The position numbers and the translations under genes were made by a program. Positions 4,008 to 24,945 of a stretch of DNA of 64,000 nucleotides are shown here, piece after piece. The stretch comes from a virus, in the IMG/VR virus record IMGVR_UViG_3300032083_001406, positions 1 through 64,000 of that record; one strand, given 5' to 3'. Position 1 is the stretch's first letter. The number at the start of each line of letters is the position of its first letter. The notes under the pieces are model-generated. The model saw only the letters and a program-made list of their open reading frames with translations, was not told the origin of the DNA and searched no databases.

Positions 4008-4274
4008 ATGGAATCCCCATTTAAACCAATAAAGAAAGAATTAGGAGACATTGTATTCCAAGACGGAACAGTTTCTGTTACTGAAACATATGTCTTTAAC
4101 AACCACATAGAATTAGAAGATTTACACGACTATCTTAAGTCCCTCAATAATCAAAAATATGAAATTTTAATTCATTTAGACAGAAAAGAAATAGCACTCA
4201 CATATTATGTTAATTACTTTCAACACGTTGAACTCTATCCAGAATTCAAAGTTAAAGGAGATGAAGAAGAATGA
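4008..4274 (+). CDS. Small acidic protein (88 aa), unknown, GDEEE terminus
   Basis: Begins MESPFKPIKKELGD. An in-frame TTG six bases upstream is less likely as the start. The protein is mixed alpha/beta and acidic, ends KVKGDEEE, and overlaps the next gene through ATGA. No family is recognised. The lack of a good ribosome-binding site and the two-hairpin element 18 bases upstream suggest RNA structure may control its translation. Confidence 0.65.
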   Translation: MESPFKPIKKELGDIVFQDGTVSVTETYVFNNHIELEDLHDYLKSLNNQKYEILIHLDRKEIALTYYVNYFQHVELYPEFKVKGDEEE

Positions 4275-4402
4275 GAAAATCAGCAACAACCTCCGTTGAA
4301 GAATTTGCCCTTGACTTTACTATTTGGATTCAAGAAACACATCCAAAGATATTCTTTGACCTACTAGCAGCCTATAATGGAAATAAGGGGGAAGAAGAAT
4401 GA
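4271..4402 (+). CDS. Microprotein (43 aa), unknown
   Basis: ATG overlaps the preceding stop (ATGA). Begins MRKSATTSVEEFALDF, is helical throughout and ends KGEEE. The preceding GGAGATGAAGAAGA serves as its ribosome-binding region. The ATGA overlaps on both sides support real translation, but no function is recognised. Confidence 0.5.
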   Translation: MRKSATTSVEEFALDFTIWIQETHPKIFFDLLAAYNGNKGEEE

Positions 4403-4539
4403 CTCAAGTAATACTCTCAATGGGAGAACATATCAGAATTATAACTGAATTATGTTCTGAATATGACCATAGATATGCAATGCTTTCATGTAAAAAATGT
4501 AAGCCATTAAGAGATGGAAGTCCATTTGGATTAATTTAA
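4399..4539 (+). CDS. Microprotein (46 aa) with CxxC
   Basis: ATG overlaps the previous stop. The protein has an N-terminal amphipathic helix (MTQVILSMGEHIRIITELC) and one CKKC pair, with another Cys upstream, so a zinc site is conceivable but incomplete. It ends within an inverted repeat (TTTGGATT with AATCCAAA, about 4524-4543) that may act as a transcript end. Confidence 0.45.
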   Translation: MTQVILSMGEHIRIITELCSEYDHRYAMLSCKKCKPLRDGSPFGLI

Positions 4540-4549
4540 TCCAAAGTTC

Positions 4550-4910
4550 AGTCATAGAGGACTGATGAATTACCACACTCTATGCAATAGGGGTTTGCCT
4601 AATTAAAAACTCGATACCGAAGGGCTACGGCACTTTTTGTTCATCAATTAGTAATGCCGAGAATGAGCGAGTTCCCCATTTTTTTCCAAAATAACAAACC
4701 GTTCCCTACGGACACAATTAGAGTTATTAGACGCATTTTCGTTGAAGCGGGGCTAAGACTATGTTAGACGTTGAAAGCCATTAACACGAATAAAGGAACA
4801 ACCAGTTATTTAGAACCAAAATCATGTAAGTTACAATCCAAACGATTGAAAGAGCCCCGCCAGTTCAATTTAGTCCTTTTGTAACCTCTGCATGATGGCG
4901 GTTTTTGCAT
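4550..4910 (+). ncRNA. Candidate large structured RNA
   Basis: A 360-base stretch without a gene but with many paired segments: CATAGAG/CTCTATG (4553/4578), AACTCG/CGAGTT (4608/4668) enclosing CGGCA/TGCCG (4628/4655), CCGT/ACGG (4699/4708), and the long-range GCGGGGCT/AGCCCCGC (4747/4853) enclosing CAATC/GATTG. Its 3' end, CCGCCA (4857), can instead pair with TGGCGG (4896) before TTTTT, giving a terminator that excludes the GCGGGGCT pairing. It matches no RNA class I can name. Confidence 0.5.
4857..4906 (+). terminator. Terminator at the end of the structured RNA
   Basis: CCGCCA (4857-4862) pairs with TGGCGG (4896-4901), followed immediately by TTTTT. Four bases of the left arm also belong to the long-range stem with 4747-4754, so the two structures are mutually exclusive. 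Confidence 0.5.
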
Positions 4911-4926
4911 TATTTTTATTTCTTAA

Positions 4927-4994
4927 GGTACACAAAGAAGTACCATATGGTTGTATCAGTTGTTATTGGTCTTTCTGTTAATATACATGATACA
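4927..4994 (+). ncRNA. Two-hairpin element, copy 3 (divergent)
   Basis: Hairpin 1 is GGTAC (4927-4931), loop ACAAAGAA, GTACC (4940-4944), then the ATAT linker and GG. The second hairpin is longer: TGTATCA (4952-4958) with TGATACA (4988-4994), its loop carrying TCTTT (4970-4974), which is complementary to AAAGA in loop 1. The TTAAGTACCC tail is missing. No gene starts directly downstream on this strand. Confidence 0.5.
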
Positions 4995-5017
4995 GGGGGG
5001 GAGGGGCTAAAAAATGA

Positions 5018-5053
5018 AAAAGTACCCCCTCAAGACCTGAATCTTGAGGGGGT
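5018..5053 (-). terminator. Terminator for the minus-strand gene at 5105
   Basis: Read on the minus strand, ACCCCCTCAAG (5053-5043) pairs perfectly with CTTGAGGGGGT (5034-5024), followed by ACTTTTTCATTTTTT. It lies about 50 bases past the stop of the gene ending at 5105. Confidence 0.75.
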
Positions 5054-5104
5054 CGGCATTTGCATGAATAAATTCATACAATTTCAAACATCGAATGTTT
5101 GCAA

Positions 5105-5473
5105 TCAAAGTGTATCTTGATTCAAAAAGTCAAACTTTGCTTTGATTTTCGCAAGTTCTTTCTCTGCTTTGGTCAATGGTTCCGAAACTGGGGACAAATC
5201 AAGAGTTGATTTGAAATTCCATGTTTGGTCTACTTGAACGGCTTCAACTGTGTATTTCTCACGACACACTTCTCTTTTGAGATTTTCCAATTTTACTTGG
5301 TTCTTTCCTCTAACCGTTCCACCTTGACGAACCAATGCAGTTATTTTATCCATTAACCTCATTCGGTGCATATTGTTTTTTTCCTTGCATACTGCAAGAG
5401 CGACGTGCTTTTTTGCATAGCACTTCACTAGTTCTCCAGTTTTCACATTTATTACGTTGTGATGTTCAGACAT
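5105..5473 (-). CDS. Basic protein (122 aa), unknown
   Basis: The start at 5473 (MSEHHNVIN) follows GGAGGTAGTAAT, an excellent ribosome-binding site; an upstream in-frame ATG is less likely. The protein is Lys/Arg-rich with helical segments (LTKAEKELAKIKAKFDFL) and a basic centre (VRQGGTVRGKNQVKLENLKRE), consistent with nucleic-acid binding. It diverges from the gene at 5624, with a two-hairpin element between them. No family recognised. Confidence 0.65.
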   Translation of the reverse strand: MSEHHNVINVKTGELVKCYAKKHVALAVCKEKNNMHRMRLMDKITALVRQGGTVRGKNQVKLENLKREVCREKYTVEAVQVDQTWNFKSTLDLSPVSEPLTKAEKELAKIKAKFDFLNQDTL

Positions 5474-5513
5474 ATTACTACCTCCATCCATAATAATCTA
5501 TTAGGGTATATAG

Positions 5514-5574
5514 GGTGTCGTTATACTTAATTCAAAGCATCACACCATATGGTAATAGGCTTTTGTATATTACC
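5514..5574 (+). ncRNA. Two-hairpin (kissing-loop) element, copy 4
   Basis: Hairpin 1 is GGTGT (5514-5518) with ACACC (5542-5546), its loop containing AAAGC (5534-5538). After the ATAT linker, hairpin 2 is GGTAATA (5551-5557) with TATTACC (5568-5574), its loop containing GCTTT (5559-5563). Stems and loop pair both differ from copy 2 but remain complementary. TATATA lies directly upstream (5507-5512). It is in the leader of the gene at 5624. Confidence 0.6.
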
Positions 5575-5623
5575 TTATATAATATCCAATTATTCTATAA
5601 TTACCTTACAGGAGGTAAAACAA

Positions 5624-6157
5624 ATGGAAGAAAAACCAGAAATAGAAGAAGAAAAGAACAGAAAAGCCACAATGGAAGACGTTGAAGCATTAGCGAAAGA
5701 AATAGGAGTAAGCAAAACAGGATGCTCCTATAATTCATTCACGATTGCTTTAGTGCATTTCATTAACAACCTAATGCAACACACATTAGCGAGTCAAAGC
5801 GTAAACCTTGAATGCCTAAAGATTCTAGTGGGAGAACCTATGTCCACACTTCAAGAAATAGAGACACTTTGGAAGAAACATAGTGATTTGCTCAGGGCAG
5901 AAAAGAAAAGAAAAGAATACTTTGAGAAGGAAGCAGCCAAAATTAATGAAGAGTTAAGACAACTTAGACGTGAAGTGGAAGATTTTCTTAACTCTGAGTT
6001 AGAAAATGCAATCCTCGCTAATGGAATAAAGAGCGAAATGCTTTCTATTGCTAGAGGTCATAGCAATGAAATGTCGTTTTCTGCTATGCTAACAGATGCG
6101 GCATATTCAACCCGTGAAATCTACAAAGGGTTCATCTCAGAAAAGAACCGCAGATAA
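5624..6157 (+). CDS. Coiled-coil early protein (177 aa)
   Basis: The start at 5624 follows AGGAGGTAAAACAA; an upstream frame runs into the two-hairpin element. The N-terminus is very acidic (MEEKPEIEEEKNRK). A segment around VEALAKEIGVSKTGCSY could be a helix-turn-helix. A long central coiled coil follows (LLRAEKKRKEYFEKEAAKINEELRQ and beyond). No family recognised. Its position beside the structured elements suggests a DNA- or RNA-associated role, which is inference. Confidence 0.7.
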   Translation: MEEKPEIEEEKNRKATMEDVEALAKEIGVSKTGCSYNSFTIALVHFINNLMQHTLASQSVNLECLKILVGEPMSTLQEIETLWKKHSDLLRAEKKRKEYFEKEAAKINEELRQLRREVEDFLNSELENAILANGIKSEMLSIARGHSNEMSFSAMLTDAAYSTREIYKGFISEKNRR

Positions 6158-6195
6158 TCGAGTTTAAGGTAAATCAGACTTAATACCTGTGTAAC

Positions 6196-6230
6196 GGGGG
6201 ATAGAGAGTAAATAGGGCTCTCTATCCCCC
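6196..6230 (+). terminator. 13-bp perfect hairpin after the 5624 gene
   Basis: GGGGGATAGAGAG (6196-6208) and CTCTCTATCCCCC (6218-6230) form a perfect 13-base stem with a nine-base loop. There is no T-run on either side, so it may be a transcript end, a processing site or part of the structured RNA directly downstream. Confidence 0.5.
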
Positions 6231-6307
6231 AAATTCGAGGCTGTATTACCTAAAGACCATTACAACCATATGGTTTGCTTTGCCATCGAAGATAAACCTC
6301 GAATTTG
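6230..6307 (+). ncRNA. Two-hairpin element, copy 5, closed by an 11-bp stem
   Basis: CAAATTCGAGG (6230-6240) pairs perfectly with CCTCGAATTTG (6297-6307) and encloses an ACCATATGG core. Hairpin 1 is weak: GGCTGTA (from 6239) with TACAACC (6261-6267), one mismatch, and a loop with AAAG. Hairpin 2 is the short ATGG/CCAT pair, loop with CTTT. The closing stem gives the layout of a three-way junction with two facing loops. No TTAAGTACCC tail. Confidence 0.5.
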
Positions 6308-6318
6308 AAAAAAAAACT

Positions 6319-6421
6319 GAACGAGTCGCTTTCAAACAATGAATTGAACAATTCCTACTTGAACCAGCCTCAAAACAGGGCGTGGCGAGATTATTATTCA
6401 TTGTTTGAAAACGACCCGTTC
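6319..6421. ncRNA. Large stem-loop (24 near-continuous pairs)
   Basis: GAACGAGTCG (6319-6328) plus TTTCAAACAATGAA (6330-6343) pair with TTCATTGTTTGAAA (6397-6410) plus CGACCCGTTC (6412-6421). There is one mismatch and facing one-base interruptions; the loop is 53 bases. It lies past the 3' end of the minus-strand gene at 6469 and after copy 5 of the two-hairpin element. Either strand could carry the functional structure. Confidence 0.55.
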
Positions 6422-6468
6422 GTAAAGAATGGGTGGCCGTTGAGCATTAGCCATCAATTCACCAAAAC

Positions 6469-7017
6469 TCACTCTTCTTCTGATACCTCCATATCAGTAG
6501 AATCGTTTGTTTCGGTTTCCGACTTAACTGGTGCTACCATACCAGTCATGCCGTTTTTGTCGAGAGTTCCATCCCAACGCTTTCCGTTCTTATCTCTAAA
6601 AGCAGAGATAAGATTAGATTCAGCCTTATCTGCAAAATATTGAGCAAAAGACTCTTGGGTGTAGTTTCCGCCAGTTTTACCGTGAGGGAGGATTGTCTCA
6701 AGGATAACAGGGCAAGAATCAATAAGGGCTACAAAGGCAGTATGAACCGCTTTCGCAACAGAATTGACATTTACCATGATTTCTGCTGGAAGGCTTGAAC
6801 GACGACCTTGACGCAATTGCAAGCCTTCGACGTTTTTTACCATAGCACGAATAGAATCCCAAAGGTTTCCACGACTTTCATCGTTGGATGTTTCGGAACG
6901 GCCTTGTTCGGCTTGAAGGGTTACAATAGTACCTATGTTCCCTATATCGTTCATTTTCATAAAAGCCTCAATTGGCTCTAATCTTTCGTTAAATTTATCT
7001 AATGTTAGTTCACTCAT
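6469..7017 (-). CDS. Paralogue B of the three-member early family (182 aa)
   Basis: Start at 7017 (MSELTLDKFNERL) follows GGAAGTGAAACAT. It shares with the products at 3305 and 7838 the segments DESR...LWDSIRA, RQGRRSSLPAE, ILPHGKTGG and KRWDGTLDKNG, followed by an acidic tail (DMEVSEEE). The conserved basic (R/K)-x-G-(R/K)-(R/K)-S-(S/T)-(L/I)-P-A stretch could be a DNA or RNA contact. The gene is flanked by a 12-base inverted repeat (CGTTGAGCATTA at 6438, TAATGCTCAACG at 7064). Its leader carries hairpin 2 plus the TTAAGTACCCC tail. Function unknown. Confidence 0.75.
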   Translation of the reverse strand: MSELTLDKFNERLEPIEAFMKMNDIGNIGTIVTLQAEQGRSETSNDESRGNLWDSIRAMVKNVEGLQLRQGRRSSLPAEIMVNVNSVAKAVHTAFVALIDSCPVILETILPHGKTGGNYTQESFAQYFADKAESNLISAFRDKNGKRWDGTLDKNGMTGMVAPVKSETETNDSTDMEVSEEE

Positions 7018-8657: not shown

Positions 8658-8742
8658 GTGGGAATATCCGAGTTTGGTCAAAGGAGCAGGGCTTAAACTC
8701 CTGTGCATATTCGCTTCGCAGGTTCAAATCCTGCTTCCCACA
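8658..8742 (+). tRNA. tRNA-Leu (anticodon UAA)
   Basis: Acceptor GTGGGAA (8658-8664) pairs with TTCCCAC (8735-8741), discriminator A, CCA not encoded. The anticodon arm is CAGGG-CTTAAAC-TCCTG with anticodon TAA. The long variable arm is of leucine type, and the T arm is GCAGG-TTCAAAT-CCTGC. It reads TTA, a favoured leucine codon in this AT-rich genome, and opens the 35-kb plus-strand run. Confidence 0.9.
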
Positions 8743-8748
8743 CTTCAT

Positions 8749-14272: not shown

Positions 14273-14347
14273 GGGCGTATGGTGTAATGGATAGCATTTT
14301 GGCCTTCTAAGCCGAAGATACGGGTTCGATTCCTGTTACGCCCACCA
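14273..14347 (+). tRNA. tRNA-Arg (anticodon UCU), CCA encoded
   Basis: Acceptor GGGCGTA (14273-14279) pairs with TACGCCC (14337-14343), discriminator A, then encoded CCA (14345-14347). Anticodon stem TTGGC/GCCGA, loop CTTCTAA, anticodon TCT reading AGA. T arm CGGG-TTCGATT-CCTG. AGA is the dominant arginine codon of the viral genes, so the tRNA probably supports translation. It lies inside the operon, so it must be cut from a long transcript. Confidence 0.93.
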
Positions 14348-14366: not shown

Positions 14367-14594
14367 ATGATAGATTATAAAAAAATGTTTGATACATTAA
14401 AAGAAGAAATAGAAAAAGTCTTAAGACAAGACATAAGAATAATGGGAAGTTGTGCTGATGAAAAATGGTTTCATAAGAAACAATTGAGAGAAATAGCACA
14501 ATTAATTTCCTTACCAGAATTTTCCCCTGCTGAACTTAACGGATTAGAATATGTTTGGGATGGGGAAATAGTAGAAGTAGATTTATGGGAATGA
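14367..14594 (+). CDS. Small acidic protein (75 aa)
   Basis: Begins MIDYKKMFDTLKEEI after AAGGAGAAATAAAT, 19 bases past the tRNA. Helical N-terminal half, acidic and Trp-containing C-terminus (EYVWDGEIVEVDLWE). Overlaps the next gene by ATGA. No family recognised. Confidence 0.6.
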   Translation: MIDYKKMFDTLKEEIEKVLRQDIRIMGSCADEKWFHKKQLREIAQLISLPEFSPAELNGLEYVWDGEIVEVDLWE

Positions 14595-14857
14595 TAAATA
14601 TGAATATAGCAGAAAAAAGAAAAGCAGTAGAATTTAGAATAGTAGACGATGAAGAATTACCTCCCATTGTTATTACTATGAACAAAGAAGATGAACCGCA
14701 AGTATTGATTAATACATATCATCGAATATGGATTTCTCTCCAGAGAAAACTTATTTGCGGCATTATCGACGTATTGCCTGAAAAGTTAGACATGATACTT
14801 TCGGGCTTTTTGACTGAACAACGTCAATACGAAAAAATGGACAAGGAGATGCTTTGA
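14591..14857 (+). CDS. Small mixed-fold protein (88 aa)
   Basis: ATG at 14591 overlaps the preceding stop; a second ATG at 14600 is possible. Product begins MINMNIAEKRKAVEF, with a beta-rich acidic centre and helical C-terminus. No family recognised. Confidence 0.6.
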   Translation: MINMNIAEKRKAVEFRIVDDEELPPIVITMNKEDEPQVLINTYHRIWISLQRKLICGIIDVLPEKLDMILSGFLTEQRQYEKMDKEML

Positions 14858-14881: not shown

Positions 14882-14953
14882 ATGACACAACCCCAACAAA
14901 TAGTAACGCTTAAGTGGCACAAGTATATGGAAGAACAGAGAGTGATAATATGA
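14882..14953 (+). CDS. Possible 23-aa peptide coupled to the ubiquitin-like gene
   Basis: Short frame beginning MTQPQQIVTLKWHKYMEEQR whose TGA overlaps the ATG of the ubiquitin-like gene. The preceding ribosome-binding site is poor. It may be a leader peptide that couples translation, or chance. Confidence 0.25.
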   Translation: MTQPQQIVTLKWHKYMEEQRVII

Positions 14954-15156
14954 TAACACTAACAATTTTGAATGAGACAGGACACACTACCCTCTCCTTG
15001 ACGGAGAGCGAAGTAATTGAACAAATTGATACGCACCCTACGCATTGGGTCTTTATTGACGGCGAGATGGTATCTAGAGAGCAAATCAAAGAATTGGCTT
15101 GGGATGACGTTACAAGCGTCGATTTAACCCCTGCTATTGTCGGAGGACATTATTGA
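14950..15156 (+). CDS. Ubiquitin-like / ThiS-MoaD-like beta-grasp protein with GG-HY tail (68 aa)
   Basis: Start at 14950 follows GAGTGATAAT. The small protein has the beta-grasp order: two N-terminal strands (MITLTILN, HTTLSL), a helix (SEVIEQI), the VFIDGEMV strand, and DDVTSVDLTPAIVGGHY at the end. The last part matches the C-terminus of sulfur carriers and ubiquitin-like modifiers (DGDEV..LPPVAGG pattern). The di-glycine is followed by His-Tyr, so a protease must expose it before an E1-like enzyme can activate it. Both an E1/ThiF homologue (20195) and a JAMM protease (21500) are in the same operon. Family assignment is by pattern; sulfur carrier versus protein modifier is unresolved. Confidence 0.65.
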   Translation: MITLTILNETGHTTLSLTESEVIEQIDTHPTHWVFIDGEMVSREQIKELAWDDVTSVDLTPAIVGGHY

Positions 15157-15186
15157 GTAATTCAATAATACTAGCCACTATCTTTT

Positions 15187-15225
15187 GGGGAGAGAAATCG
15201 TTGGGGGTTTCTCTCCCCTTTTTTT
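15187..15225 (+). terminator. Strong terminator after the ubiquitin-like gene
   Basis: GGGGAGAGAAA (15187-15197) pairs perfectly with TTTCTCTCCCC (15208-15218), loop of ten bases, then seven T residues. It splits the early run into two transcripts, or attenuates expression of the reductase and everything after it. Confidence 0.85.
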
Positions 15226-15241
15226 GTCATTGTTGATTAAT

Positions 15242-15619
15242 ATGGATTTAAAGAATTTTATATCAGAAGAAGCCTTATCAATGATGATGACAATTAATGG
15301 GTGGAAATTACTTTCACCTATCGTTATTGAAGATTATGCTGTATTTAAAGCAGATTTTTATGACGATGAACAAATTATAGCAGTAAGTCCTAAAGGTTCG
15401 CAGATAAGAAGTTTAGGCAAAACCGTCTTAAAATACAAAGACGAAATATTCTATTCCATATCCGAACTATTTTTGAGGTTCGGACAAGACTCAATACAAT
15501 CCTTCAATGAATGGCAATTTATAGAAGAAAAAGAATGGGTTGTATTTAAAAATGGTGAATGGACACATTCATTTACCACATTAAATAAATTGCCGAAAAC
15601 AACTAAATTGAGGTGTTAA
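15242..15619 (+). CDS. Small protein (125 aa), unknown
   Basis: Start at 15242 (MDLKNFISEEALSMM), first gene after the terminator; an upstream frame runs through the terminator. Beta-rich second half with many aromatics. GGTGTTAAT at its end serves the reductase gene. No family recognised. Confidence 0.6.
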   Translation: MDLKNFISEEALSMMMTINGWKLLSPIVIEDYAVFKADFYDDEQIIAVSPKGSQIRSLGKTVLKYKDEIFYSISELFLRFGQDSIQSFNEWQFIEEKEWVVFKNGEWTHSFTTLNKLPKTTKLRC

Positions 15620-15620
15620 T

Positions 15621-17480
15621 ATGACAACAGAAAAAGAAATACTATCAGACATTACAGTACACATGAAATACGCTAGATATGATGAATCTATATCAAGAAG
15701 AGAAACATGGAAAGAAATCGTAACTAGAAATATGAATATGCATATTAAATCATATCCTGATTTAGAAACCGAAATTGTCAATGTTTATGATAATTTTGTA
15801 TTAACCAAGAAGGTATTACCTTCTATGCGCTCAATGCAATTTGGAGGAAAGCCAATTGAAATTTCTCCTAATCGAGTTTATAATTGTGCTTATCTACCAA
15901 TTGATTCCATTACATCTTTTTCAGAAAGTATGTTTCTATTACTTGGTGGAACAGGTGTAGGTTATTCTGTTCAAAGACATCATATAGAAGAACTGCCTGA
16001 AATTAAGCAACCTAATCCTAATAGAACTCGTAGATATTTAATCGCAGATTCAATAGAAGGTTGGGCTGATTCAGTAAGGATTCTTTTAGAATGTTATACA
16101 GGTATTCGTTCTTCAAGTCCAGTATTCGATTATTCCGATATTAGACCTAAAGGTTCTTTATTAAAGACTAGTGGGGGTAAAGCCCCAGGATTTCAACCTT
16201 TAAGAGAGTGTTTAGTTAAAGTTGAAGGTATTCTTCAAAATATACCAATAGGTGAGAAACTTCGTTCCATTCAAGTTCATGACATTATGTGCCATTTGGC
16301 TGATGCTGTTCTTGCAGGTGGAATTAGAAGGGCGGCTATGATTAGTTTATTCTCTGCTGACGACGTTGAAATGATTTCATCTAAATCTGGCAATTGGTGG
16401 GAAAATAGCCCACAAAGAGGTAGAGCCAATAATTCAGCAGTTATTTTAAGACATAGAGTAACTAAACAGTTCTTTATGGAACTATGGGAAAGAATTCAAC
16501 TAAGTGGCTCTGGAGAGCCTGGAATTTACTTTTCTAACGATAAAGACTGGGGAACTAACCCTTGTTGCGAAATTGCACTACGACCATATCAATTCTGTAA
16601 TTTAACTGAAGTTAATGCTTCAAATGTTACTGACCAATTTGATTTAGAAGCAAGAGTTAAAGCGGCTTCTTTCCTAGGAACGCTTCAAGCGGGATATACT
16701 GATTTCCACTATCTACGAGAGATTTGGCAGAAGAATAGTGAAAAGGATTCTTTATTGGGTGTATCAATGACTGGTATTGCTTCAAATGTTGTAGAACATT
16801 TAGATTTGGAAATGGCTGCTTTTGCTGCTAAAATGGAAAATAAGAGAGTTGCAGAACTTATTGGTATTAACCAAGCAAGTCGTGTAACTTGTGTTAAACC
16901 CGCAGGAACTACTTCTCTAGTTTTAGGTACTTCTAGTGGTATTCATGCTTGGCACGATAAGTATTATATTCGTAGAATTAGAGTAGGAAAGAATGAAGCA
17001 ATTTATTCTTATCTTTCTGAAAATCATCCAGACTTAGTAGAAGATGAATATTTTAATCCTGCTGAACAAGCAGTAATTAGTATTCCTCAGAAAGCCCCAA
17101 AGGATGCTATTATTAGGACTGAAAACGTTTTTGATTTATTAGAGCGTGTAAAGAACTTTAGCATTCGTTGGGTAAGAACTGGTCATAAAGACGGTTTAAA
17201 TACTCACAATGTTTCAGCAACAATTTCTATTAAGGAAAAAGAATGGGATGATGTTGGTGAATGGATGTGGATGAATAGACATTATTACAATGGCTTATCT
17301 GTATTGCCTTATGATGGTGGTACATACAAACAAGCCCCATTTGAAACTATTTCTAAGAAAGAATACGATGAATTGGCTTCAAAGTTATCTGAAATTGATT
17401 TAACTCAAGTTATTGAGAATCAAGATAATACTAACCTAACAGGCGAACTAGCGTGTGCAGGTGGTCAATGTGAAATCTAA
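15621..17480 (+). CDS. Ribonucleotide reductase, adenosylcobalamin-dependent monomeric type (619 aa)
   Basis: Makes deoxyribonucleotides from ribonucleotides for viral DNA synthesis. Resembles the monomeric class II (RTPR/NrdJ) enzymes: VYNCAYLP carries one redox cysteine, NPCCEIALRP with QFCNLTEVN is the active-site Cys-x-Glu loop, GVSMTGI follows, and the C-terminus CAGGQCEI is the CxGGxC pair that re-reduces the active site. No second subunit or radical-activase gene is nearby, which fits B12 dependence. About 120 residues shorter than the Lactobacillus enzyme. Cofactor class is from family knowledge. Confidence 0.85.
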   Translation: MTTEKEILSDITVHMKYARYDESISRRETWKEIVTRNMNMHIKSYPDLETEIVNVYDNFVLTKKVLPSMRSMQFGGKPIEISPNRVYNCAYLPIDSITSFSESMFLLLGGTGVGYSVQRHHIEELPEIKQPNPNRTRRYLIADSIEGWADSVRILLECYTGIRSSSPVFDYSDIRPKGSLLKTSGGKAPGFQPLRECLVKVEGILQNIPIGEKLRSIQVHDIMCHLADAVLAGGIRRAAMISLFSADDVEMISSKSGNWWENSPQRGRANNSAVILRHRVTKQFFMELWERIQLSGSGEPGIYFSNDKDWGTNPCCEIALRPYQFCNLTEVNASNVTDQFDLEARVKAASFLGTLQAGYTDFHYLREIWQKNSEKDSLLGVSMTGIASNVVEHLDLEMAAFAAKMENKRVAELIGINQASRVTCVKPAGTTSLVLGTSSGIHAWHDKYYIRRIRVGKNEAIYSYLSENHPDLVEDEYFNPAEQAVISIPQKAPKDAIIRTENVFDLLERVKNFSIRWVRTGHKDGLNTHNVSATISIKEKEWDDVGEWMWMNRHYYNGLSVLPYDGGTYKQAPFETISKKEYDELASKLSEIDLTQVIENQDNTNLTGELACAGGQCEI

Positions 17481-17817
17481 TAGGGCTTTAAGAAATATAA
17501 CCTATGATGAGTTTAAAGCCTACGTTGTAATCAACGTAGATATGTTTTCTGATGAATCTAGAGTTAGATTGAATCATACGTTTAAAGTATGTGAAAATAC
17601 CCTTGATGAAAGTGAAAAGAAGAGAAGATTATATGACGTTTTATATCGCCATTGTCTTTGGGATGTTGAAGAAGCCAAAGAGGAAGGGTTTATAATGTTC
17701 TTAGAACGAGAGTTAAAGGAAGCAAAGGATATGTTTTCTTATTACAAAAATAATAAATTAGAATTAGGAGAGAATAAAAATGAAAGAAAAAAATCCAGAG
17801 TATGTGGCAAGTCATAG
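17470..17817 (+). CDS. Small protein (115 aa), GTG start
   Basis: Begins inside the end of the reductase gene. GTG at 17470 is chosen because GGTGG lies eight bases upstream; other GTG codons at 17455 and 17461 are possible. Helical and charged (EVKEAKEEG-like, FLERELKEAKDMFSYY). No family recognised. Its last 38 bases overlap the next gene. Confidence 0.55.
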   Translation: MKSNRALRNITYDEFKAYVVINVDMFSDESRVRLNHTFKVCENTLDESEKKRRLYDVLYRHCLWDVEEAKEEGFIMFLERELKEAKDMFSYYKNNKLELGENKNERKKSRVCGKS

Positions 17818-17947
17818 AAGTTATGGTAAAAGAGTCGCTACTCGATGTAGAATATGTGGGGGTCAATTATTGATTCCCGAAGAAATAAAAAATGAAGTGC
17901 ATGAATCTTGCGAAAGCAAGGTTAATGATAAATTATTTATGATGTGA
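17780..17947 (+). CDS. Zinc-binding microprotein (55 aa)
   Basis: Begins MKEKNPEYVASHRSYG after TTAGGAGAGAATAAAA. CRIC near residue 24 and HESC near residue 45 form a CxxC...HxxC zinc site. The N-terminal region is basic. Function unknown. Confidence 0.6.
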   Translation: MKEKNPEYVASHRSYGKRVATRCRICGGQLLIPEEIKNEVHESCESKVNDKLFMM

Positions 17948-17951
17948 TAAT

Positions 17952-19190
17952 ATGAATGAATTAATTATAGAAATACCGAAGCCCGACGATTCTAGAGATG
18001 TCCTAGTAGCAAAGATTTATTCTGATAGTTTTACTATGCCTACAAGAACGATTAAATCAAACAGAGTTAATAATGCTAAAGACCCAATTAATGCGGGAAT
18101 AACGCAGTTATTTAATACTTCAATTTTTCCTAGAAGGGCTAGGCGTGGTCGCTATAGTTATGACCGCAATTATAATATGTTTGATTTTAATATTCATAAC
18201 GATTTCAATCTATTTCTTACCATAGGTTCTTTACCTATTCTTGTTGAGCGTAAAGGTAGTAGAATGTTTCTAAATGGATTAGAACATAGTAAGAAAAGCA
18301 TTTGTCAAGTATTGGCTAGAGTTACATATAAATCTATTTTTGATAGTAATACTAGTACTTTATTATCTATTATGCATAAATATCTACAAATACCCGAAAA
18401 CATTCGACACGTTATGGAGAATAGATTCCCTTATTATTTTTATGAAAGGTGGGAAAAGACAGAAGTTGTTCTTAATGTAGAACAGATTAGTTCAGATGAA
18501 TTTGCAATTGAGATTTCTGATGGTCTTTGGGGTACTATTAATACTAAAGACCTCAATACTATGTGTAATTCTTATATGTTTAACTCTAAAAGAGGTAACT
18601 GGCATGATTTAAAACCTGAGACTCTTTATGAGAGGTTAATCGGTAGAGAACCTTCTGAATCCGAACTTAAAGTAATGAAAGAGTTTCTGAAGCAAAATAG
18701 ACATGGTGATATTGTTGAAGTTAGAGCAATGGAATTACTTAAGGAAGTAGAAGTTAAATACTCAAACATCAAGGTAGAATATGATGAAGAAAAACATCCT
18801 AAAGTTATGTATGTTCGTGGTAAAGGTTATGATTGGCAGATTAAACCTACTAGATTTAAAGGCGGTGGAACTCAAGACGTTCAAAGTTTCGTTTGGCAAA
18901 AGTTTCCACAACTGGCATATAATTCCGCAGGAAAACCAATTCTTGACGAAGAAGGTAAACACATTAAAATAACAGGTGCAGGAGTTTGGTCTGGGCCAAT
19001 TTGTATTGATAACTTACAAAGTGGTTCTTCATTAGGCGACCAATTTGTTGCAAGAGCATTAGCATTCCTTAATGATGTAATTACAGTTGCTAGAGTACAT
19101 ACAATTAAAAGTTACTTAGTTACTGAACCAGATACTTGTAGAAATAAAGATGTAACAATACTAATAAATGGTGAGAAAAATGAAATGTGA
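17952..19190 (+). CDS. Large early protein (412 aa), unknown function
   Basis: Begins MNELIIEIPKPDD after TGTGATAAT. I do not recognise the family. Visible features are an arginine-rich segment near residue 60 (FPRRARRGRYSY), aromatic-rich strands, and a glycine-rich C-terminal part (RFKGGGTQDVQSF, KITGAGVWSGPICID, LQSGSSLGDQFVARALAFL). It lies between the reductase and TFB genes and overlaps TFB by 11 bases, suggesting coupled expression. Possible roles include DNA binding or transcription, but none is supported. Confidence 0.75.
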   Translation: MNELIIEIPKPDDSRDVLVAKIYSDSFTMPTRTIKSNRVNNAKDPINAGITQLFNTSIFPRRARRGRYSYDRNYNMFDFNIHNDFNLFLTIGSLPILVERKGSRMFLNGLEHSKKSICQVLARVTYKSIFDSNTSTLLSIMHKYLQIPENIRHVMENRFPYYFYERWEKTEVVLNVEQISSDEFAIEISDGLWGTINTKDLNTMCNSYMFNSKRGNWHDLKPETLYERLIGREPSESELKVMKEFLKQNRHGDIVEVRAMELLKEVEVKYSNIKVEYDEEKHPKVMYVRGKGYDWQIKPTRFKGGGTQDVQSFVWQKFPQLAYNSAGKPILDEEGKHIKITGAGVWSGPICIDNLQSGSSLGDQFVARALAFLNDVITVARVHTIKSYLVTEPDTCRNKDVTILINGEKNEM

Positions 19191-20034
19191 TGAATGTGGT
19201 TGTAGAGAATTTGCATTAAATGAAAGGCTAGGAGAACGAGAATGTTCTGATTGTGGCTTAATCCAAGTCTATGAAGCATTTGAAGAAAGTGTTTCTTTAA
19301 TTAAAGATGGTAAGTTGATAAGAAACCCAGATAATAATACATTAGGTTCTATAATAACAGGGAAAGGTTCTTATAAATATACTAGAGGCGGATTGAGTAA
19401 TACTAGAGATAGTAATATCCAAAAGGCCGTAATTATGGGAAATATGCTTTTAGCCAAGTTAGGTTTCTCTTCTCTAAAAAGAGAGTTTGAAGCCATGTAT
19501 ATTTCTTTGTATAGAAAACACATATTCAAATCTTCTCAATTAGAGATTAGAGTAAGTGGTATTACATATATTCTTTTAGAAGAAAATGCAACACCAGTTA
19601 AGGTTAAAGAAATTTGTCAAGAATACGATTGTTCTATTAAGTTAGTTAATAGAATGATTAAGGCAATAAGAAAGGTTAGGAAACCAGTAATGCGAGATAA
19701 TTCCCTCTTTAAGTTTAAGAGAGAACTTAGTAAAATTACTGATGATTTAGCGTTTCATGCTAAAGCAGTTGAAGTGTATGAATACTTTGAAACTATTATA
19801 AGTCAAACTACTTTTAATAAAGGTAAGACTTATAATGCTAGTATCTGTTGGATTGCAGTAAATATGTTCAACTGGTTTAGTTTAAACAGAGAAATGATTT
19901 CAAACAGTACTGATTTTAGTACTGTTGCTATTTGGCGGCAAAGTAAATCAATTGTTAATTTAATTGGTTTAGATAATGTCAAGGACATAAAGGGAAAGAC
20001 CTTTGAACAATTATTAAATATAAAGGAGAAATAA
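19180..20034 (+). CDS. Transcription factor B (TFIIB homologue, 284 aa)
   Basis: Bridges TBP-bound TATA DNA and the archaeal RNA polymerase. Start at 19180 follows GGTGAGAAAA. The N-terminal zinc ribbon uses Cys3, Cys6, Cys22 and Cys25 (CDEC, CSDC). A linker and then two cyclin-like repeats follow, the first around LLAKLGFSSLKREFEAMY...ITYILLEENATPVKVKEICQ. Length is close to archaeal TFB (about 300 aa). A viral TFB could redirect the host polymerase to viral promoters. It lacks an obvious copy of the usual B-finger consensus, so initiation properties may differ. Confidence 0.88.
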   Translation: MKCDECGCREFALNERLGERECSDCGLIQVYEAFEESVSLIKDGKLIRNPDNNTLGSIITGKGSYKYTRGGLSNTRDSNIQKAVIMGNMLLAKLGFSSLKREFEAMYISLYRKHIFKSSQLEIRVSGITYILLEENATPVKVKEICQEYDCSIKLVNRMIKAIRKVRKPVMRDNSLFKFKRELSKITDDLAFHAKAVEVYEYFETIISQTTFNKGKTYNASICWIAVNMFNWFSLNREMISNSTDFSTVAIWRQSKSIVNLIGLDNVKDIKGKTFEQLLNIKEK

Positions 20035-20036
20035 AT

Positions 20037-20198
20037 ATGAGAAAAGATAAAGCAATTAATGACGTACAATGTTTAGAATGCAGAAGTTATTCATTAGTGC
20101 ATTGGAAACCAACAGATACAAATTGTAAATGTATAGAATGTAATAAAGAATATGGAATGGATTTTATTCAGTTTGTTAGAGAAGGTGGATTAGAATGA
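20037..20198 (+). CDS. Zinc-ribbon microprotein (53 aa) coupled to the E1-like gene
   Basis: Begins MRKDKAINDVQCLEC. CLEC near residue 12 and a CKCIEC cluster near residue 34 make a zinc ribbon. Its TGA overlaps the ATG of the E1/ThiF-like gene, so the two are translationally coupled. It could be an adaptor for that enzyme or an independent factor. Confidence 0.6.
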   Translation: MRKDKAINDVQCLECRSYSLVHWKPTDTNCKCIECNKEYGMDFIQFVREGGLE

Positions 20199-20752
20199 GA
20201 AAAGTACTAATTATAGGAGCAGGTGGTATTGGGTCATTTTTGATTCAGAACTTAGATAAAGTCGGAATGTATGATATTACAGTTGCAGACCCCGATAAGG
20301 TTGAACAAAAGAATTTGACATATCAAAACTTTACAAAAGGACACGTTGGACAGAATAAGGCTTTAGTTATGAGAGATAGTTATGAATCTGTCAAACACGC
20401 AAATACATTCCCAATTCTTTCAGAGAAACAAATGCAAGGTTATGACTTGGTTATGTGCTGTGTAGACAACTTGGGAGTAAGACGCACGTTATACAACACA
20501 AGTATTAAATGGCTCGACCTTAGAGCGCAAGGTAGGAATGCGGCGTTTATTTCATCGTATTCCGACCCAATGCTTTATGATAGTCTATTAGCAGGAGATG
20601 ATAGAAGTTACAGTTGTCAAGGTGATTCATGGGATGGAACAAATAAGAATGTTCAATTCATGCAAATTGCTATTGCAGGACTAGGCGCACAATGGGCGCA
20701 AAAATTCTTTAATGAAGAAGAAGTAAAAGATTTCATTATGATAAACATATAA
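20195..20752 (+). CDS. E1/ThiF-like ATP-binding (adenylating) enzyme (185 aa)
   Basis: Family members adenylate the C-terminal glycine of ubiquitin-like proteins or sulfur carriers. The nucleotide loop GAGGIG (residues 8-13), Asp32/Asp34, K-x-x-x-x-NL-x-x-Q (to Gln44) and G-x-x-KA (52-56) match the ThiF/E1 signature. A cysteine in SYSCQG near residue 145 could be a catalytic thiol. At 185 residues it is a minimal adenylation domain, shorter than ThiF/MoeB (about 250), with no separate catalytic-cysteine or ubiquitin-fold domain. Likely partner is the GG-HY protein at 14950. Confidence 0.83.
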   Translation: MRKVLIIGAGGIGSFLIQNLDKVGMYDITVADPDKVEQKNLTYQNFTKGHVGQNKALVMRDSYESVKHANTFPILSEKQMQGYDLVMCCVDNLGVRRTLYNTSIKWLDLRAQGRNAAFISSYSDPMLYDSLLAGDDRSYSCQGDSWDGTNKNVQFMQIAIAGLGAQWAQKFFNEEEVKDFIMINI

Positions 20753-20765
20753 GGAGATGAAAAAT

Positions 20766-21497
20766 ATGGTAAAAACATGGACAACAGAAGAAAAAGCATT
20801 TTTAACAATGCACTTGAATAAGAAGCCTAAACAAATTGTGAAGAGATTTCACACTAAGTTTGGAGAAGATAGAACATATCAATCTATATACGGTATGGTT
20901 AATACCCTAAGAAAGAATGTTCTTAAACAACCACTAAAGAAGAATAGTATGAAGGTTACAATTGAGAAACCAGTTAAGACTAGAAAGCCTAGAAAAACAG
21001 GCTATTCCTCAAAAAGATGGACTAAGAATGAAGATAACTACCTTAGTGAAATATCTTCTTTAGATGAGTTAAAAACAGCATCTAAACAAATGGGCAGGTC
21101 TTTAACAGCACTAAAGAATAGATTCTATGGAAAAGGATATTCATTCAAGAAGAATGAATTGAAGCAACAGTCAAACTCTGTTGATAGAAAGAAATCTAAT
21201 CTAAAATTAGCGGCCGATAAGTTGGCTCAATTACTAGAACAAAAGAAAGAAGATATTAATGTTCTTAGAAATAAGAACTCTTTGTTAGAAGCAAAATGTT
21301 TAACTCTAACTCAAGAGATTGAAAGGATGAATCAATCTTGGGCTAAGAAGTTTGAAGAATATACTATTGAAGTAGACCAGATTACTAGGCAAAAGATTGC
21401 AGAAGCAAGAAAGGAAAGACTCTCATGGAGAGAGCGTCGTAAAATAAAGAAAGCGAGCAAACTACAAAAGAAATTAGATAAACTAAATGGTGAATAA
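20766..21497 (+). CDS. Myb/SANT-like DNA-binding protein with coiled coil (243 aa)
   Basis: Start at 20766 follows AAGGAGATGAAAAAT. Two tandem three-helix units: KTWTTEEKAFLTMHL...YQSIYGMVNTLRKN and KRWTKNEDNYLSEIS...LTALKNRFYGKGYS. Both have the W...E(E/D)..L pattern of SANT/Myb or GcrA-like modules. A long basic coiled coil follows (KLAQLLEQKKEDINVLRNKN onward) and the end is very Lys-rich. Probably a dimeric DNA-binding regulator. It sits between the E1-like and JAMM genes; a link to that pathway is unproven. Confidence 0.7.
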   Translation: MVKTWTTEEKAFLTMHLNKKPKQIVKRFHTKFGEDRTYQSIYGMVNTLRKNVLKQPLKKNSMKVTIEKPVKTRKPRKTGYSSKRWTKNEDNYLSEISSLDELKTASKQMGRSLTALKNRFYGKGYSFKKNELKQQSNSVDRKKSNLKLAADKLAQLLEQKKEDINVLRNKNSLLEAKCLTLTQEIERMNQSWAKKFEEYTIEVDQITRQKIAEARKERLSWRERRKIKKASKLQKKLDKLNGE

Positions 21498-21499
21498 AT

Positions 21500-22069
21500 A
21501 TGATAACATACGAAGAAGAAATGAAAAACAGACGAGCCTATGTGAAATTCAGTCTTGAAGATACTTGGGCTAGACGACAACTATGGGAAAATAAAGAAAC
21601 TAACCTTGAGTCTTTTGCTCAACAGCCTTTCTTTGATGCTATTTGGGAAATGTCTACTAGAATTCTACCTAATCTTGAAGTACAAGTAGTTATTGATGAT
21701 AATGACAATTGTTTCGTATCATCGGGTTCAAGTGGTTTTGTCTCTTTTATGCAAGACCCAGTAGGAATGAAATTACCTATTAAATGTTGGATTCATACTC
21801 ATCCATTTGGTCGTGCTTATTTTAGCGGAACTGATTGGAATACTGTCAATATTTGGCAAAAGAATATGAAAGAAGCATATGTACTTGGTGGATATGAACA
21901 CTTTGGATTTTGGCAGAATACCGACCCTAATGTTCTAGTTATTCAAGAAAGTAATTTAGGTGAACAACATATTCAACATCAATTTGAAAAAAAATGTTCA
22001 TGTTGGACTGATTCGGGAACACCTCCCGTTGAATGGATTTGTGAGAATTGTCAGGAGGAAGAAGAATGA
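21500..22069 (+). CDS. JAMM/MPN+ metalloprotease with C-terminal zinc knuckles (189 aa)
   Basis: Zinc peptidases of this family cleave after the C-terminal glycine of ubiquitin-like proteins. The motif H99-x-H101-P-x6-S109-x-x-D112 (WIHTHPFGRAYFSGTD) is complete, and a Glu upstream (candidate Glu50) could be the catalytic acid. Cys166, Cys168, Cys181 and Cys184 form an extra C-terminal zinc site, ending in a four-Glu tail. In this operon it could remove His-Tyr from the ubiquitin-like protein at 14950 or cut conjugates. Phage tail-assembly JAB proteins are a second possibility, but this gene is in the early operon. Confidence 0.85.
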   Translation: MITYEEEMKNRRAYVKFSLEDTWARRQLWENKETNLESFAQQPFFDAIWEMSTRILPNLEVQVVIDDNDNCFVSSGSSGFVSFMQDPVGMKLPIKCWIHTHPFGRAYFSGTDWNTVNIWQKNMKEAYVLGGYEHFGFWQNTDPNVLVIQESNLGEQHIQHQFEKKCSCWTDSGTPPVEWICENCQEEEE

Positions 22070-22692: not shown

Positions 22693-22911
22693 ATGAAAGC
22701 AATTGGTAATTATATTATTGTGCAACAATATGAAGAACGAGTTAATGGAATACTTGTCAAAGAAAATAATGTAGGTATTGTTGTAGATGGTGCTAATGAG
22801 CATGGGTCTTTAGTAGGAAAGAAAGTAATCTTTTCTACAATGAAACATATTGAAGAATACGGTGAATATAAGTTTATTCATAAGGATTATGTTTTGGCGG
22901 TGATTGAATGA
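22693..22911 (+). CDS. GroES-like co-chaperonin (72 aa, shortened)
   Basis: Caps the chaperonin cavity during folding. IGNYIIVQQYEERVNGILV corresponds to the first strand and mobile loop of GroES, with ILV in place of the usual IVL contact. VGIVVDGAN, VGKKVIFS and YKFIHKDYVLAVIE match the remaining barrel strands and the conserved end. It is about 20 residues shorter than bacterial GroES, the roof hairpin probably being lost. GGAGGACTAACT precedes the start, and the gene overlaps the GroEL-like gene by ATGA, as in a groESL operon. Confidence 0.8.
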   Translation: MKAIGNYIIVQQYEERVNGILVKENNVGIVVDGANEHGSLVGKKVIFSTMKHIEEYGEYKFIHKDYVLAVIE

Positions 22912-24422
22912 TATTATTTGGAGATGAAGTAAAAAAGAAATTAATGGAAGGAATAAATCTTGTAGCAGATACAGTTAAACCAACTTTGGGGCCACAGGCT
23001 AAAACTGTTATTTTACAGGGTAATCCTCCAGTTGTAATTAATGATGGAGTAACTATTACTAAGTACGTTAATAACGATGACCCATTCATTCAGATGGGAA
23101 TTCAGTTAGTACAGGATATTGCTTCAAAGGCTCAAGATACTTCTGGTGATGGAACTACTACTGCTTGCGTTTTAGCACAAGCATTATGTAATAATATTCT
23201 AGAACTAGAAGAACTTTATAATCTACATCAACTTAAGTTAGAACTATTAACTGCTTCAATGAAAGTAACTAGATTCTTAAAAGAAAAGGCTACTGAAATT
23301 GATGAAGATAATGTATATGATATTGCTATGATTGCTTCTAACAATGATGCTGATATGGCTTCTATTATTAGTGAAGCAGTAAAGACTGTTGGTAAAGAAG
23401 GCATTGTTGCTTTAGAAGAATCTAAATCTAACAAGACTTATCTTGAAGTAAAGGAAGGTATTGAACTTGATGAAGGATATTTAAGTCATCTTATGGCTAA
23501 TACTGAAAACGGTGAAACAGTATTCGAGAATCCTTTGATATTTATGTCAAATCTTTCTATACGAAACTTTCAAGATATACTTCCAGTATTAGAAATATCT
23601 TCTGCACAAAGCAGACCTCTTCTAATTATGTGTAAAGGAATGGAAGGTTCAGCATTGAATAATTTAATTGCTAATGTAATGGCAAATACAATTCAATGTG
23701 CGGCTATTCTTGCACCTAACTTTGGTGATGCTCAAATTGATGAATTGGGAGATATTTGTTCTCTAGTTGGTGGTAAAGTATTAACTGCTGAATCTAAGGA
23801 TGACCCACAGTTAGTTTCATTAACAGAACTAGGAAGTTGTTCAAAGGTTATGGTGTCGAAAGAGAAAACTATTCTGATTGGCGGAGAAGGTAATACAGAC
23901 GGTAAAATCGCTCAACTGCGTGGAACTATCGAAGAAGCAAAAGGTATGGATAGAGCAAGGCTCAAGCGTCGTTTAGCACGATTAGCAGGTGGAGTCGCCG
24001 TTATTCATGTTGGTGCAGGTTCAACCGTTGAACTTAGAGAAACTAAGGAAAGATTAGATGATGCCCTAAATGCAACTAAATCTGCATTAAAGGGAGGAAT
24101 TATTATTGGTGGCGGTAAGTCATTGTATAATGCACGTAAGGCTCTTGACTTAGAAGTAACTGGAGATTATCTAGTTTACAAATCATTAACTGCTCCTTTT
24201 ATGACATTAGTAAATAATGCAGGTTTGGATTTAGAAAGATATACAGTATCAGTAGATGACGAATATGATATGGGAATTGATATGGTTTCTGGTAATGAAG
24301 TTAATTTAAGGGAAGCAGGTATCTTTGACCCATTGTTAGTTACACTAGGCAGTTTCGATGCGGCTATGTCTATTGCTAATCTTTTCCTAACTACTGATGT
24401 TGCAGTATTATCGGGTGAATAA
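22908..24422 (+). CDS. Group I chaperonin, GroEL-like (504 aa)
   Basis: ATP-driven protein-folding ring, probably serving capsid or replication proteins. Equatorial motifs TLGPQAKTV, NDGVTI, DTSGDGTTTA (with the catalytic Asp) and DDALNATK (with the second catalytic Asp) are intact, as is the GGIIIGGG segment. The apical domain is more diverged. It is about 40 residues shorter than GroEL and lacks the GGM tail. Group I rather than thermosome-type, consistent with Marine Group II hosts, which carry GroEL; that link is family knowledge. Confidence 0.92.
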   Translation: MILFGDEVKKKLMEGINLVADTVKPTLGPQAKTVILQGNPPVVINDGVTITKYVNNDDPFIQMGIQLVQDIASKAQDTSGDGTTTACVLAQALCNNILELEELYNLHQLKLELLTASMKVTRFLKEKATEIDEDNVYDIAMIASNNDADMASIISEAVKTVGKEGIVALEESKSNKTYLEVKEGIELDEGYLSHLMANTENGETVFENPLIFMSNLSIRNFQDILPVLEISSAQSRPLLIMCKGMEGSALNNLIANVMANTIQCAAILAPNFGDAQIDELGDICSLVGGKVLTAESKDDPQLVSLTELGSCSKVMVSKEKTILIGGEGNTDGKIAQLRGTIEEAKGMDRARLKRRLARLAGGVAVIHVGAGSTVELRETKERLDDALNATKSALKGGIIIGGGKSLYNARKALDLEVTGDYLVYKSLTAPFMTLVNNAGLDLERYTVSVDDEYDMGIDMVSGNEVNLREAGIFDPLLVTLGSFDAAMSIANLFLTTDVAVLSGE

Positions 24423-24424
24423 GT

Positions 24425-24547
24425 ATGGAAGATAGACTAATAAATGTATGTGCTGATGCTATTACACTTCTTCATGTTCTAGGTCATCCTGATATAGCAA
24501 ACACATTACAAAAGAGAATTAATAAGATAATGGGGCTGAATCAATGA
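24425..24547 (+). CDS. Helical microprotein (40 aa)
   Basis: Begins MEDRLINVCADAITLLHVLG two bases after the chaperonin stop. Predicted as two short helices. ATGA overlap with the next gene supports translation. Function unknown. Confidence 0.5.
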   Translation: MEDRLINVCADAITLLHVLGHPDIANTLQKRINKIMGLNQ

Positions 24548-24945
24548 AGGAAAGAGCAATTACTGTTACATTACCTGCACCACATAAAGCACAAATAAAA
24601 TGTCCTATTTGTAAAGGAAACAAATGTATTGTCTGTAATATGACAGGTTCATTAAAGATTGATGTTGCACCAAAGATTCCAATTCAAAGAGCACATATTA
24701 TTAAATATGTTTTTGAGAATATGCATTCTGTTGCAAATGAATTAACTCTTAAGTATGGGCTTGTTCCAGAAATAGGAACTAAAGAAGTATTAGAAATTAA
24801 TGGTGGTCAATTTGAAATAGTACAGGTATCATCTTTGGGTGGTTCTTGTTGGATTGTTAATCGACTAGATGAATTAGACACGCCAAGATATTTTACCTCA
24901 ATAAAAGAATTGAATAAATTTAAGGAGGGATGGATGCTTGAGTGA
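24544..24945 (+). CDS. Zinc-finger protein (133 aa)
   Basis: CPICKGNKCIVCNMTG near residues 20-35 gives CxxC...CxxC knuckles with DnaJ-like glycines. A mixed alpha/beta domain follows (IIKYVFENMHSVANEL, QFEIVQVSSLGGSCWIV). No enzyme family is recognised; possibly a chaperonin- or DNA-linked adaptor given its position. Confidence 0.65.
   Translation: MKERAITVTLPAPHKAQIKCPICKGNKCIVCNMTGSLKIDVAPKIPIQRAHIIKYVFENMHSVANELTLKYGLVPEIGTKEVLEINGGQFEIVQVSSLGGSCWIVNRLDELDTPRYFTSIKELNKFKEGWMLE

Follow-up and report, generated by a model that had tools for sequence, protein, structure and literature searches.

The DNA considered here, a window of 64,000 nucleotides, is part of a 65.6-kb virus record in IMG/VR (IMGVR_UViG_3300032083_001406). 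An initial annotation, made from the sequence alone, had pointed to three genes on its plus strand, encoding a ubiquitin-like protein (Ubl; 14950..15156), an E1/ThiF-type enzyme (20195..20752) and a JAMM metalloprotease (21500..22069), and had proposed that the virus uses them for a protein-modification cycle of its own. The three open reading frames (ORFs) are indeed found at these positions and on one strand. Below, we describe their products and their conservation in related viruses, and discuss what such a set of proteins may be used for.

A ubiquitin-like protein, an E1 domain and a JAMM protease

The Ubl has 68 amino acids and ends in TPAIVGG, followed by HY. In the family alignments its start is the ATG at 14950, and a GTG at 14914 falls in unconserved sequence. 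No convincing profile match was obtained for it in the libraries searched, including Pfam and NCBIfam; specifically, matches to ThiS, MoaD or SAMP (small archaeal modifier protein) families are absent both for the Ubl of the window (Pfam, NCBIfam) and for 54 members of its family (Pfam). We do not file it as a SAMP because of this lack of a match to SAMP-type sequence families, though it may work like one. In the AlphaFold2 (AF2) model, which has a predicted local distance difference test score (pLDDT) of 83, the elements follow the order β-β-α-β-β-(short helix)-β, with strands at residues 2–6, 13–17, 32–36, 39–41 and 56–61 and helices at residues 19–28 and 43–46; the C-terminal GGHY is modeled at low confidence. 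When the model is compared with the PDB by Foldseek, most of the top matches are to ubiquitin, NEDD8, SUMO and ISG15 (E about 2e-3, template modeling (TM) scores of 0.4–0.5), and the matches in a viral library include giant-virus ubiquitins and models of the phage tip attachment protein J. Model and structure search thus agree that the protein models as a ubiquitin-type β-grasp, as initially annotated, and the missing β-grasp that had been named as fatal to the proposal did not materialize. Pfam PinA (T4 Lon inhibitor, Inhibitor_I24) matches 30 of the 54 family members weakly (best E 1.4e-4), which could hint at a β-grasp in PinA or be due to chance.

The family is under purifying selection, with a median dN/dS of 0.12 in 18 pairs; together with the synteny of the three genes, this value led us to reject chance ORFs. 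In a comparison of 30 families of these viruses, it also has the lowest lysine content (2.1%, versus 8.1% for the genes of the window overall), and position 3 is the sole site at which more than 2 of the 54 members have a lysine, a composition that would suit a modifier avoiding attachment to itself. Relatives were not found in cultured phages, and a search of about 85,000 species genomes returned solely three contigs of a single metagenome-assembled genome in GTDB, Altibacter sp. EAC109, which are probably viral contamination.

At the C-terminus of the Ubl, GG is present in all of 122 distinct Ubl/E1 pairs, as the end of AIVGG or, rarely, AVVGG or GMQGG, and is followed by zero to nine varying residues: none in 25 pairs, one in 14, two in 75 and three to nine in 8. 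On the E1 tree (113 rows), a minimum of 67 changes is needed to account for the exact tails and a minimum of nine for their length classes, while the GG never changed. A fixed GG with a free tail is what would be expected if the residues behind it are removed or ignored. Roughly one Ubl in five has no tail and ends directly in GG, and 24 distinct Ubl/JAMM pairs of this kind retain an intact JAMM motif. Consequently, the trimming of terminal residues such as HY, which had been proposed for the protease and which we too consider plausible, cannot be its sole job; the removal of the Ubl from substrates is a natural candidate for a further role.

Judged by its sequence, the product of 20195–20752 is a minimal E1/ThiF adenylating domain of 185 amino acids. 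It matches Pfam ThiF at E=5e-20, above the cut-off, and its family profile finds the PDB chain 9egc (1.9e-9), UBA5 (5.8e-9), CBASS Cap2, the NEDD8 E1, MccB, Uba4 and MoeB. The motif residues are GxGGxG, D32, D34, N40, Q44, K55 and D91, and the positions that are invariant or nearly so in 96 distinct relatives comprise G8, G10, G11, G13, D32, D34, N40, Q44, K55, D91, R110, R114 and C141. The 'full' ThiF/E1 signature of the initial annotation therefore stands for these residues, but not for two other features: the usual arginine of the NxxRQ motif is replaced by Tyr43, in 96/96 distinct relatives and in 158 further sequences, and the zinc-binding CxxC pair is absent. The best candidate for a catalytic cysteine is the invariant C141, whose alignment to known catalytic cysteines is ambiguous.

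The third protein (HTHPFGRAYFSGTD) has 189 amino acids and contains the complete E...HxH...x7-S-xx-D catalytic set of JAMM/MPN+ metalloproteases, with residues E60, H99, H101, S109 and D112 invariant in 93–94 distinct relatives. Taken singly, its sequence matches Prok-JAB weakly (E=0.014). Across the family, however, this profile is matched by 50 of 53 members (best 4e-5), and the family profile matches AMSH-like proteases in the PDB (AMSH-LP, E=3.5e-4). The AF2 model (pLDDT 84, predicted TM score (pTM) 0.81) has an MPN fold, whose nearest solved structures are Rpn11, AMSH/Sst2, CsRpn11, PfJAMM1 and CSN5, with modest Foldseek E-values of 0.008 and weaker. While this bears out the assignment as a JAMM protease, the zinc knuckle that had been noted alongside it (C166/C168/C181/C184, at the C-terminus) is confined to the virus of the window and its close relatives and is not a family trait; the acidic C-terminus is nearly family-wide. 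No NlpC/P60 match was found on the protein. In one of the 84–97-kb records described below, the JAMM gene lies in two adjacent pieces (stretch positions 24095–24698), reflecting either a real frameshift or an assembly error.

A conserved module in magrovirus-like genomes

We confirmed relatives of the E1 at 372 IMG/VR stretches and relatives of the Ubl at 199. In every locus that contains the complete trio, the Ubl gene comes first, followed by the E1 and then the JAMM gene, all on one strand (142/142 and 125/125), and the same order, with a fourth gene for a 412-residue protein included, is seen in 63/63 loci; these three sets share contigs. Records of 84–97 kb have one Ubl gene in 29/29 cases and a JAMM gene in 29/29. 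Even a deep lineage, in which the Ubl is about 50% identical, retains the gene set, and so does a lineage in which it ends in PGMQGG followed by GNQ. Where a gene of the trio is missing, the contig or locus ends there, for which reason we rejected the idea of relatives devoid of the Ubl. Accordingly, no relative with adequate flanks combines E1 and JAMM genes with the lack of a GG-tailed protein, a constellation that had been named beforehand as speaking against a cycle. The trio is a core module of these viruses.

The 412-residue protein (17952..19190, plus strand) is encoded between the Ubl and the E1 in 64/64 loci and belongs to no known family. Its single invariant cysteine, Cys351, is conserved in 90/90 distinct representatives within the motif W.GPICID(N/Q)...S.GDQ..AR...ND, which is similar to the active site of E2 enzymes, G.ICLDIL (G.[IV]C[IL]D context); the homolog of one lineage reads HPxNS...GVCIDN. 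Hhalign, run with five approximate E2 sequences, places Cys351 on the E2 cysteine, but in a comparison with 42 control families the score comes only third, and statistical proof failed both here and in profile searches. The initial annotation had seen no E2 in the locus, which may be wrong: judging by the Cys351 motif, the 412-residue protein may be an E2-like transfer enzyme, which we regard as a lead and not as a result.

The window derives from a magrovirus-like tailed virus of the order Magrovirales, with marine Poseidoniales archaea as the presumed hosts. We base this placement on a comparison of gene content and layout with the description of Aoguangviridae/Magrovirales by the International Committee on Taxonomy of Viruses, which covers viruses associated with marine Poseidoniales archaea (PMC10768690; PMC12999244). 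These viruses have genomes of 90–110 kb, their own family B DNA polymerase and ATP ligase, TFB and GroEL/GroES, and carry their replication and morphogenesis clusters on opposite strands (PMC10768690); the same kind of Marine Group II (MGII) viruses, with GroEL-type chaperonins, has been described by Nishimura et al. (PMC5332604). The window encodes an ATP-dependent DNA ligase, a family B DNA polymerase, a superfamily 1 (SF1) helicase, a tail tube protein, a group I chaperonin and a GroES-like ORF (22693–22911, recognized by inspection), arranged in two gene blocks on opposite strands. While the record itself is a 65.6-kb piece, its relatives reach 84–97 kb, so that gene set, relatives' size and opposite blocks all agree with the description; the TFB match is weak. 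The trio lies among replication and chaperonin genes, with the tail genes on the opposite strand, and we infer from this position on the replication strand that it may be expressed early.

Several neighbors complete the picture. Just upstream of the E1 gene lies a gene for a TFB-like transcription factor with a zinc ribbon (19168..20034, plus strand; a weak Zn_Ribbon_TF match), kept in 66/66 loci; a TFB is listed for the magrovirus family (PMC10768690), and we regard the gene as context of the cycle, not as a component. The same applies to a conserved protein of 100 amino acids encoded directly upstream of the Ubl (14555..14857, plus strand; 53/53 loci). A cysteine-rich, zinc-ribbon-like protein of 55 amino acids (17780–17947), found between Ubl and E1 in 64/64 loci, is a possible partner in the cycle. 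Unlike the fully conserved neighbors of the Ubl, an adjacent ribonucleotide reductase (15621–17480; B12-dependent type by inspection) is patchy, with homologs in 40 of 58 eligible loci. The window further contains genes for tRNA-Leu(TAA) (8658–8743) and tRNA-Arg(TCT) (14273–14347), and a tRNA-Arg-TCT has been reported for another magrovirus, too (PMC5628999).

A proposed modification cycle and its alternatives

Archaea use SAMP, UbaA and JAMM proteins for conjugation (PMC4895103), and we propose that the virus runs a SAMP-like conjugation and deconjugation cycle of its own, to which we assign a probability of roughly 0.6. Good support for the cycle comes from the folds, the conserved active sites, the synteny, and the combination of PAIVGG with a variable tail. 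In it, the JAMM protease would cut the variable residues after the GG, where a tail exists, and thereby expose ...AIVGG. The small E1, given its family and intact motif, would adenylate the GG carboxylate with ATP, and the activated Ubl would then be passed on, possibly via Cys141 of the E1 and/or Cys351 of the 412-residue protein, to proteins of the host or the virus, at lysines or other nucleophilic groups. Finally, the JAMM protease would reverse the link, which would also explain why it remains intact where the Ubl already ends in GG.

A number of points weigh against this proposal. There is no certain E2 or E3 in the module, and no profile search ties the 412-residue protein to E2s. The TM-scores of the Ubl model are moderate (0.4–0.5), and the E1 lacks the usual arginine of NxxRQ, although this is a family-wide variant and the whole domain still matches ThiF. 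Moreover, SAMP- and Urm1-type proteins can carry sulfur by means of an identical set of parts, and enzymes of the host could contribute the sulfur steps; archaeal Ubl proteins may even do both, conjugation and sulfur transfer (PMC2948915).

The main rival is hence a pure sulfur carrier, for which QbsE/QbsD and CysO/Mec, or Urm1 and TtuB in tRNA thiolation, could serve as models: the JAMM protease would expose the GG, the E1 would adenylate it, and a host donor would generate a thiocarboxylate, from which sulfur passes to tRNA, a cofactor or some other product. Known sulfur-carrier operons have these three parts (PMC1779556), a link to tRNA thiolation is frequent among the Ubl proteins of archaea (PMC2948915), and the virus encodes tRNA-Leu and tRNA-Arg. 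Yet genes for rhodanese, PAPS reductase and ATP_bind_3 (TtuA-like PP-loop) were not found in 30 records in which valid controls were detected, and none of the annotated conserved neighbors is a sulfur-metabolism gene. Since, in addition, the JAMM protease is kept intact even where the Ubl needs no trimming and the Ubl is depleted of lysine, we favor conjugation and consider a pure sulfur carrier unlikely. Still less probable is a counter-system without a cycle of its own, in which Ubl and E1 would act as decoys while the JAMM protease strips host SAMP from viral or host proteins. Archaeal hosts do use SAMPs (PMC4895103), and Borgs, which are elements of archaea, encode numerous putative deSAMPylases, for which a role against tagging by the host has been proposed (PMC12660748); but the strict co-conservation with intact active sites in all complete loci fits a working cycle better than decoys, and the viral Ubl has no sequence match to known Ubl families. 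The initial annotation had also considered virion assembly as an aim of the system. Phage tail assembly already uses a Ubl and JAB pair (lambda tail proteins I and K; PMC1779556), and by analogy the JAMM protease would process the Ubl during particle assembly, and the tip attachment protein J models among the viral Foldseek matches could be read in this sense. We nevertheless rejected it as the leading idea due to the gene context, and deem it very improbable: the neighbors of the trio are replication and chaperonin genes, the tail genes being located on the other strand (PMC10768690), lambda has no E1 partner, and in the window the Ubl is a separate protein and no NlpC/P60 match is seen on the JAMM protease.

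As possible targets of such a cycle, the initial annotation had named host defense and virion assembly. Haloferax SAMP2 promotes the turnover of TBP2 (PMC4895103), and with a TFB-like gene adjoining the viral E1, host transcription is an attractive guess by analogy, but no more than that. A tentative possibility, on which we would not insist, is a fully self-contained viral cascade, with Ubl, minimal E1, the 412-residue proteins as a new family of Cys-dependent E2-like enzymes, and JAMM deconjugase, which would belong to the magrovirus core and modify host transcription or defense proteins during infection of Poseidoniales.

Comparison with known systems

The archaeal SAMP system (SAMPs, the E1 UbaA and the JAMM proteases of Haloferax and Pyrococcus) has in common with the viral set a small β-grasp protein ending in GG, a MoeB/ThiF-type E1, a JAMM protease, no certain E2 or E3, and an archaeal setting. 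In contrast to it, the genes described here are virus-encoded and form one syntenic cluster, the Ubl has no MoaD, ThiS or SAMP match and carries variable residues after the GG, the E1 is a bare domain of 185 amino acids with Tyr for Arg and no zinc CxxC pair, and there is a possible Cys transfer protein.

Modifier, E1 and JAB protease are also co-encoded in bacterial operons, some of them with E2-like proteins (Iyer et al., 2006; PMC1779556). Here, by comparison, they are separate minimal proteins encoded by core replication-strand genes of a virus, and an E2 is merely suspected. The anti-phage Bil/Bub-type and CBASS Cap2/Cap3 systems, described later, are related bacterial Ubl-type systems, and the viral E1 profile matches CBASS Cap2 and the ThiF-type chain 9egc.

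Among tailed viruses, adjacent E1 and JAMM genes also occur in crAss-like phages (crAss001 gp76/gp77; DAC15 gp051/gp050), and hhalign relates the crAss-like E1 to the viral E1 profile with 97.6% probability over 97 columns. The crAss001 and DAC15 enzymes have Gly where the magrovirus E1 has Tyr in place of the NxxRQ arginine, and the crAss-like JAMM motif reads HxH...FFSGTD. Compared with the magrovirus trio, the crAss-like proteins are larger and multi-part (336–414 amino acids) and their hosts are bacteria; a Ubl is not detectable in the neighborhood of the pair. We dismissed a 'TAIVGG' in the N-terminus of the crAss001 E1, as it is missing from the DAC15 E1 and these phages show no detectable Ubl. 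The genes in question (stretch positions 4256–6654 in crAss001 and 4551–6660 in DAC15) are annotated as metalloprotease/ThiF or hypothetical. The jumbo phage PhiXhv-12 was set aside, as it has an E1 whose neighbors show no Ubl or JAB match.

Carriers whose post-GG residues are removed by a JAMM protease, and which are served by a ThiF-type E1, are familiar from QbsE/QbsD and CysO/Mec. Those sit in biosynthetic operons, whereas the viral genes show neither an operon of this type nor a sulfur donor. Lambda and T1, in turn, are tailed viruses with a Ubl (tail assembly protein I) and a JAB domain (K, with NlpC/P60), but have no E1, a tail-gene context and fused domains (PMC1779556). The literature surveyed does not mention a Ubl system in magroviruses, the survey being partial and an earlier annotation possible.

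If our proposal is true, an abundant group of viruses of ocean archaea encodes a whole reversible protein-tagging cycle and keeps it in every genome examined. To our knowledge, the cycle would be the first closed one of its kind among archaeal viruses. It would provide a minimal system, of three or four small proteins, in which to study ubiquitin-like conjugation, and a viral counterpart both to the SAMPylation of the host and to the Ubl systems with which bacteria defend themselves against phages.

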